From: a virus
Reading direction: 5' to 3' (one strand)
Length of the DNA: 55,330 bases
IMG/VR virus record: IMGVR_UViG_3300003267_000247
Span: 1-55,330 of that record
Part shown: one piece after another, positions 50,788-50,977 of the stretch
How the letters are laid out: the number at the start of each line of letters is the position of its first letter
Numbering within the stretch: position 1 is the stretch's first letter
Made by a program: the position numbers and the translations under genes
The notes under the pieces: generated by a model
What the model was told of the DNA's origin: nothing
The model's input: the letters and a program-made list of their open reading frames with translations, nothing else
Database searches by the model: none

Positions 50788-50871
50788 GGGGTATAAATGG
50801 CGTCGATTGTGTCTTAAAGCCCTATAAGGGACGATGCAAGACTAGAGTTCGATTCTCTAATACTCCACCAT
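50788..50871 (+). tRNA. tRNA-like RNA without a regular anticodon arm
   Basis: Acceptor GGGGTAT/ATACTCC, discriminator A, encoded CCA, and a perfect T arm TAGAG-TTCGATT-CTCTA are clear. The 48 bases between cannot be folded by hand into a normal D arm and a 7-base anticodon loop; instead GTCTT/AAGAC and CCCT/AGGG stems appear. At 84 nt it is class II sized. It may be a tRNA mimic. Confidence 0.5.
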
Positions 50872-50977
50872 AAAGCTCTGTAATGCTGTATATCGACATA
50901 AGCGAATCCTGTATACGCGTAAATGAAGTAGTGTGTACAGGTAGGCGAAAACGTTATACAGCATTACAGAGCTTTAA
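50872..50977 (+). ncRNA. Long-stem structured RNA (22-bp perfect stem)
   Basis: Positions 50872-50893 pair perfectly with 50956-50977, and inside CCTGTATAC pairs with GTGTACAGG (one G.U). It starts at the base after the CCA of the tRNA-like RNA. There is no T run after it and no coding frame. It is probably a stable RNA or a processing hairpin. Confidence 0.7.

Follow-up and report, generated by a model that had tools for sequence, protein, structure and literature searches.

A compact tag-less tmRNA in a phage contig belongs to a family found in many phages and may act as a decoy against host trans-translation

The window analyzed here is the whole 55,330-nucleotide stretch of IMG/VR virus record IMGVR_UViG_3300003267_000247 (positions 1 to 55,330). 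It contains a cluster of tRNA genes and noncoding RNAs headed by a promoter-like sequence, and within this cluster a short tRNA-like RNA is followed by a long hairpin and a gene for a Ro-like protein. The features at this locus are as follows.

49695 to 49723, plus strand: strong sigma-70-like promoter, TTGACA-17-TATACT with TG before the -10 element (consensus match only, 11/12)
50577 to 50786, plus strand: small hydrophobic (membrane-like) ORF of 69 amino acids, ending one base before the RNA
50788 to 50870, plus strand: compact tag-less tmRNA reduced to the tRNA-like domain, 83 nt including its encoded CCA, assigned by covariance-model match
50788 to 50794, plus strand: 5' strand of the acceptor stem, GGGGUAU, with G3 of G3·U70; 7/7 pairs with 50860 to 50866
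50795 to 50806, plus strand: D-loop analogue AAAUGGCGUCGA, with a GG..UCGA motif and without a D stem; GG and UCGA are invariant in 23 aligned members (the motif was part of the search pattern)
50807 to 50839, plus strand: helix P2, 50807 to 50813 with 50833 to 50839, 7 bp
Between the P2 strands, within 50807 to 50839, plus strand: P2 cap, a 19-nt loop with a CCCU-AUA-AGGG mini-hairpin (from the fold)
50843 to 50859, plus strand: T arm, UAGAG-UUCGAUU-CUCUA, 5/5 pairs, with covariation in the family
50860 to 50870, plus strand: 3' strand of the acceptor stem, AUACUCC (U70), then A73 and CCA (sequence and pairing)
50871 to 50976, plus strand: 106-nt hairpin closed by a perfect 22-bp terminal stem (50871 to 50892 with 50955 to 50976), inner stem 11 bp
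51968 to 53473, plus strand: Ro-like protein, DUF2828 + DUF7788, phrog_850 RNA-binding protein (domain and PHROG matches)

The first-pass annotation of this DNA had described a tRNA mimic that lacks an anticodon arm but has a perfect acceptor stem, T arm, and CCA, and the sequence bears this out. All seven acceptor pairs form, and because the 5' GGGG pairs with CUCC, they include G3·U70, the alanine identity pair. All five pairs of the T arm form as well, and the element ends in an encoded ACCA (50867 to 50870). No anticodon arm or D/anticodon domain fold was found in the body of the RNA. Instead, the capped P2 helix occupies the place of both the anticodon arm and the entire mRNA-like domain of a tmRNA; just 19 nt separates the P2 strands, and the mRNA-like domain, resume codon, tag frame, and pseudoknots are absent. 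The G3·U70 pair, the GG..UCGA D-loop analogue, and the capped helix leading straight into the T arm point to the tRNA-like domain (TLD) of tmRNA. When 50788 to 50870 was folded alone, the z-score was only -1.8 and the minimum-energy fold differed from the TLD fold.

Standard annotation tools did not recognize the element. With default settings, ARAGORN called tRNAs for Thr, Pro, Trp, and Gln, four in all across the window, and none at 50788 to 50870. A cloverleaf under relaxed settings was rejected as a candidate, since relaxed ARAGORN also made no call there. No Rfam family, RF00005 included, reached its threshold at 50788 to 50870. The bacterial tmRNA model RF00023 likewise gave no match to the window copy, which is too diverged for that model. 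Because RF00023 misses it, the membership of the window copy rests on a family model.

Relatives were collected with two DNA patterns. The first fixed CCACCA, the T loop, GG..UCGA, and a 5' GGG, with 27 to 57 free bases between and position 70 left free. Viral contigs gave 65 matching stretches, versus 7 from the bacterial and archaeal genomes searched (257 Gb). Two of these seven (L193 and L194) look like members by eye; the L194 contig contains phage terminase and portal genes, and L193 has one phage-family neighbor, which is weakly informative. After correction of the 5' register, a complete 7-bp acceptor stem was present in 48/49 selected members, and U lay opposite G3 in 50/50 sequences, though position 70 was free in this pattern. 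The second, wider pattern did not require an encoded CCA and fixed U70; it yielded at least 120 stretches, so the size of the family is a lower bound. A structural filter applied to all loci retained at least 123 distinct compact sequences from 163 loci, many of them overlapping or repeat copies.

Among the 123 distinct members listed, the 3-70 pair was G·U in 122, while pair 4-69 varied (GC, CG, UA, or GU). Since the first pattern fixed G3 and the second fixed U70, the G3·U70 counts are unbiased for the free half only. CCA was encoded in 56 of the 123. Helix P2 was 5 to 10 bp long, with one member at 12 bp, and its cap most commonly started with AAAGCC; an inner stem of at least 3 pairs could be formed in 84% of the caps versus 54% of shuffled caps. 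Both patterns required GG..UCGA, and the invariance of this motif is thus in part a product of the search.

When 23 members were aligned, standard pairs filled 97.5% of the pair cells, compared with 48 to 55% when the partner strand was slid, and changes on both sides of a pair occurred in 122 cells versus 34 in shuffles. Double changes were present in the acceptor stem, P2, and the T arm of these 23 sequences; P2 was 93% paired, with double changes at 6/7 pairs. This covariation shows the secondary structure of the family, and the alanine identity pair and the missing tag region are equally plain.

A covariance model, R2, was built from 20 phage RNAs, leaving out the window copy and the two sequences closest to it in the 23-member alignment (L048 and L136). 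R2 recovered exactly 50788 to 50870 in the window with 66.6 bits (E = 2.4e-14). As controls, the ends of two full-length tmRNAs scored 22.8 and 28.7 bits and ordinary tRNAs scored about 22 bits or less. Model R1 gave the same interval 72.9 bits. RF00023 (374 positions) scored above its cut-off in 35/40 records that carry the compact form, and these matches, each 78 to 84 nt long, spanned model positions 1 to 374 with the middle (tag region) deleted. We conclude that 50788 to 50870 is almost certainly a member of a family of compact tag-less tmRNAs.

RNAs of other sizes were seen beside this family. Forms of 105 to 132 nt in viral contigs (L319 to L337 and L011) are tag-less or near-tag-less and could be a reduction series; the compact-tmRNA form of one sister phage of the window, L004, is 115 nt long. 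Vibrio phage D419 has a 71-nt alanine-type tRNA-like RNA without an anticodon arm (L207, positions 561 to 631), which R2 scored at 46 bits. About 290 Vibrio phage records matched one query, the listed matches lying at the T arm and acceptor; D419 was the one inspected.

Most compact members stand alone, since a tRNA gene lies within 500 nt of just 28 of the 123 listed, and ARAGORN called none of the 123. Three cultured carriers were confirmed, namely Streptomyces phage BRock, Pontimonas phage phiPsal1, and Stenotrophomonas virus Jojan60, and their annotations show neither a tRNA nor a tmRNA at this position. In phiPsal1, the compact tmRNA is flanked by the genes for the prohead protease and the capsid, and in Jojan60, it is partly overlapped by an annotated hypothetical protein. 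The scans indicate a form that is common in phages, strongly selected for alanine charging, and mostly solitary. Neither an SmpB gene nor a full-length tmRNA was found in the 40 carrier records, many of which are fragments (control for SmpB, 10/14 genomes); a phage-encoded SmpB was rejected on this count. In the window and three sister phages (L004, L136, and L340), the RNA has the same place in a shared gene order, near tRNA-Met, tRNA-Pro, tRNA-Trp, the Ro-like gene, and tRNA-Gln. A small hydrophobic ORF also lies just before the compact tmRNA in L004 (4463 to 4654) and L136 (2205 to 2390).

The compact form was compared with known tmRNAs. It shares with bacterial tmRNA (ssrA, RF00023) G3·U70, A73, GG..UCGA, the T arm, helix P2, and the lack of an anticodon arm. 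Unlike bacterial tmRNA, it has no mRNA-like domain, tag, or pseudoknots, and it measures about 80 nt rather than about 370 nt. Tag-less mitochondrial tmRNAs (RF02544) and the approximately 65-bp plastid forms have also lost the tag frame and kept the tRNA-like domain; however, these are organellar genes served by nuclear SmpB and are not phage-borne. Among the 97,179 unique tmRNA sequences of a 2025 survey, 79 came from phages and only 9 standard-form genes lacked a tag frame (PMC11915505).

The closest precedent is the tmRNA of Mycobacterium phage DS6A, which is described in two later papers as little more than a TLD (Mao et al. 2009, via PMC4131195 and PMC11915505). According to the same papers, a DS6A-like molecule strongly inhibits tmRNA in E. 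coli, perhaps via titration of SmpB (PMC4131195, PMC11915505). The RNAs collected here resemble that of DS6A in being phage-encoded tmRNAs cut down to the TLD, with no tag and no full tmRNA in the same record. DS6A is a single reported phage case, whereas the present family numbers over 100 distinct sequences spread across many phages; the comparison with DS6A is with the published description of its RNA. This kind of compact tmRNA is already known, from one phage. No paper describing the breadth of TLD-only phage tmRNAs was found in the open-licence literature, and both this breadth and the conserved capped helix appear to be unreported.

The retained features suggest how such an RNA might act. 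Trans-translation is nearly universal in bacteria. In tmRNA, AlaRS recognizes G3·U70 and A73 for charging, and EF-Tu is bound through the T arm and acceptor. SmpB, which takes the place of the missing anticodon arm, is bound by the D-loop analogue. The compact tmRNA at 50788 to 50870 would be processed by RNase P and at its CCA end, with the downstream hairpin cut away when that end is made, and would then be charged with alanine by host AlaRS. Once charged, it would load onto EF-Tu and host SmpB and enter stalled ribosomes. Since it has no template, it would be unable to add a tag. It could instead titrate SmpB, EF-Tu, and stalled A sites, so that host trans-translation would be suppressed during infection. 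By analogy, we lean toward such a decoy role, for which the inhibition precedent is the DS6A-like molecule and not the window RNA.

We propose more tentatively that tag-less compact tmRNAs constitute a widespread class of phage RNAs that may suppress or re-route host trans-translation and that has been missed by annotation tools. If true, this would be an RNA-based phage counter to host ribosome rescue. Blocking of trans-translation by phages has hardly been discussed so far, DS6A being the one phage on record with a TLD-only tmRNA. Why phages would disarm rescue becomes directly testable in phages whose hosts are harmless, for example, phiPsal1 and BRock.

The main rival to the decoy gives the same RNA an active part in rescue. 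The alanyl-TLD would enter stalled ribosomes with SmpB and take over the growing peptide, after which a factor for release or hydrolysis would free the ribosome, so that phage proteins would escape the degradation tag. Every charging feature has been kept. Mitochondria, moreover, retain both SmpB and tmRNAs that lack a tag frame, and the 2025 survey suggests that these RNAs still help (PMC11915505). However, the sole experiment reported for the TLD-only type shows inhibition of tmRNA, and the carriers have no known release partner, SmpB being the only one searched for. We regard active rescue as rather unlikely, although it deserves more weight than the readings that follow.

An RNA that works outside ribosome rescue is less probable still. 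It might tie up AlaRS or EF-Tu, or donate alanine outside translation, and SmpB would then be irrelevant. In favor of such a sink or donor, no feature of the family is more constrained than the alanine identity pair, and the carriers have no SmpB gene. Against it, GG..UCGA is present in every aligned member, which argues for recognition by SmpB, even if the motif was partly imposed by the pattern. We favor the decoy over this role.

There is little to recommend the view that the element has no function and is decaying, left over from a full tmRNA gene or from integration at ssrA. Fragments of tmRNA are common in elements that integrate at ssrA, and the 105- to 132-nt forms could be taken as intermediates. 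But neither half of the TLD has been lost, three helices show compensatory changes, and the RNAs are spread over many phages. The 5' acceptor strand, P2, and T arm are retained jointly, unlike in a 3' attachment-site fragment.

The first-pass annotation had joined the tRNA-like part to the following hairpin and likened the whole to bacterial Y RNAs; on this reading, a single Y-RNA-like molecule would combine a tRNA mimic with a long stem that binds the Ro-like protein. Several of its observations proved accurate. The 106-nt hairpin starts at the next base and has a perfect 22-bp stem, with a minimum free energy of -55.5 kcal/mol versus -21.4 ± 3.4 kcal/mol for dinucleotide shuffles (z = -10), and the Ro-like gene starts downstream of the tRNA-like RNA, at 51968, about 1 kb away. 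The inner stem, put at 9 bp, has 11 bp in the minimum-energy fold. Like YrlA (RF02553), the locus combines tRNA mimicry, a nearby Ro-like protein, and a long adjoining stem, and the arrays of the sister phages hold other hairpins of about 85 to 110 nt with 11- to 14-bp closing stems elsewhere.

The fusion itself was not upheld. When the downstream folds of 46 members were compared, that of the window was by far the strongest (z = -12; next, -5.3), which places the hairpin outside the conserved design of the RNA. No such hairpin follows the CCA in the three sister phages with matching gene order, and other members stop at CCA. A single fused RNA was rejected for this reason, and the hairpin at 50871 to 50976 is an element separate from the compact tmRNA. 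In YrlA, the large stem is built from the 5' and 3' ends of the very RNA that contains the tRNA-like domain (PMC8394870). Here the domain order differs, and the stem does not include the tRNA-like part, which ends in CCA. RF02553 had no match in the window even at an E value of 10, and RF00019 (Y_RNA) had none at or near 50788 to 50976. The leave-out model, the RF00023 matches to relatives, and G3·U70 identify the tRNA-like part as a tmRNA TLD rather than as Y RNA. The Ro-like gene was present in only 4/40 carrier records. Together, these results make the fused Y-RNA-like molecule highly improbable. A degenerate ordinary tRNA, suggested by the position of the element among tRNA genes, is at least as improbable, because ARAGORN is silent on it with both settings and neither an anticodon arm nor an ARAGORN call was found in any of the 123 listed members.

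Taken alone, the hairpin could be either an RNase III-type processing site or a Y-RNA-like molecule that partners with the Ro-like protein. Its Y-RNA-like traits are the terminal stem, a length of about 106 nt, and a distance of about 1 kb from the Ro-like gene. Rfam microRNA matches to the hairpin were far below thresholds and were set aside as hairpin chance. Relatives of the Ro-like protein are widespread in phages (673 phage records), and among 69 Ro-like viral loci, there were 3 strong and 2 weak compact-tmRNA matches nearby. These counts, with the 4/40 carriers, led us to reject a general functional link between the Ro-like protein and the compact tmRNA. The Ro-like protein had no sequence match to any solved Ro60 structure.

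A second structured RNA lies directly 5' of tRNA-Pro in the window (51278 to 51375), L340 (3500 to 3587), and L136 (3027 to 3112). The L340 and L136 copies have similar closing stems (GCGCCGATTAT and GCGGCGATTAT, respectively). Their likeness hints at a conserved small RNA, which might be a candidate Y RNA. By eye, the loop motif ATGAAGTA is common to three hairpins, a weak resemblance.

Other features of the arrays were also observed. A tRNA-Met-like gene (CAT) at 49948 to 50021 was called by ARAGORN with relaxed settings and missed by default, and a hairpin with an 11- to 13-bp stem (49845 to 49955) lies ahead of it. At 8601 to 8756 of L004, a tRNA-Ile gene is flanked by the arms of a 28-nt inverted repeat (86% complementary), which could hold the pre-tRNA at the end of a long stem. 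Behind the Ro-like gene, positions 53507 to 54634 of the window have no PHROG match and a weak alginate lyase match (26 bits; cut-off, 22.2). The terminase large subunit gene of the window (43098 to 45683) is split by an intein whose endonuclease domain is of the LAGLIDADG type.
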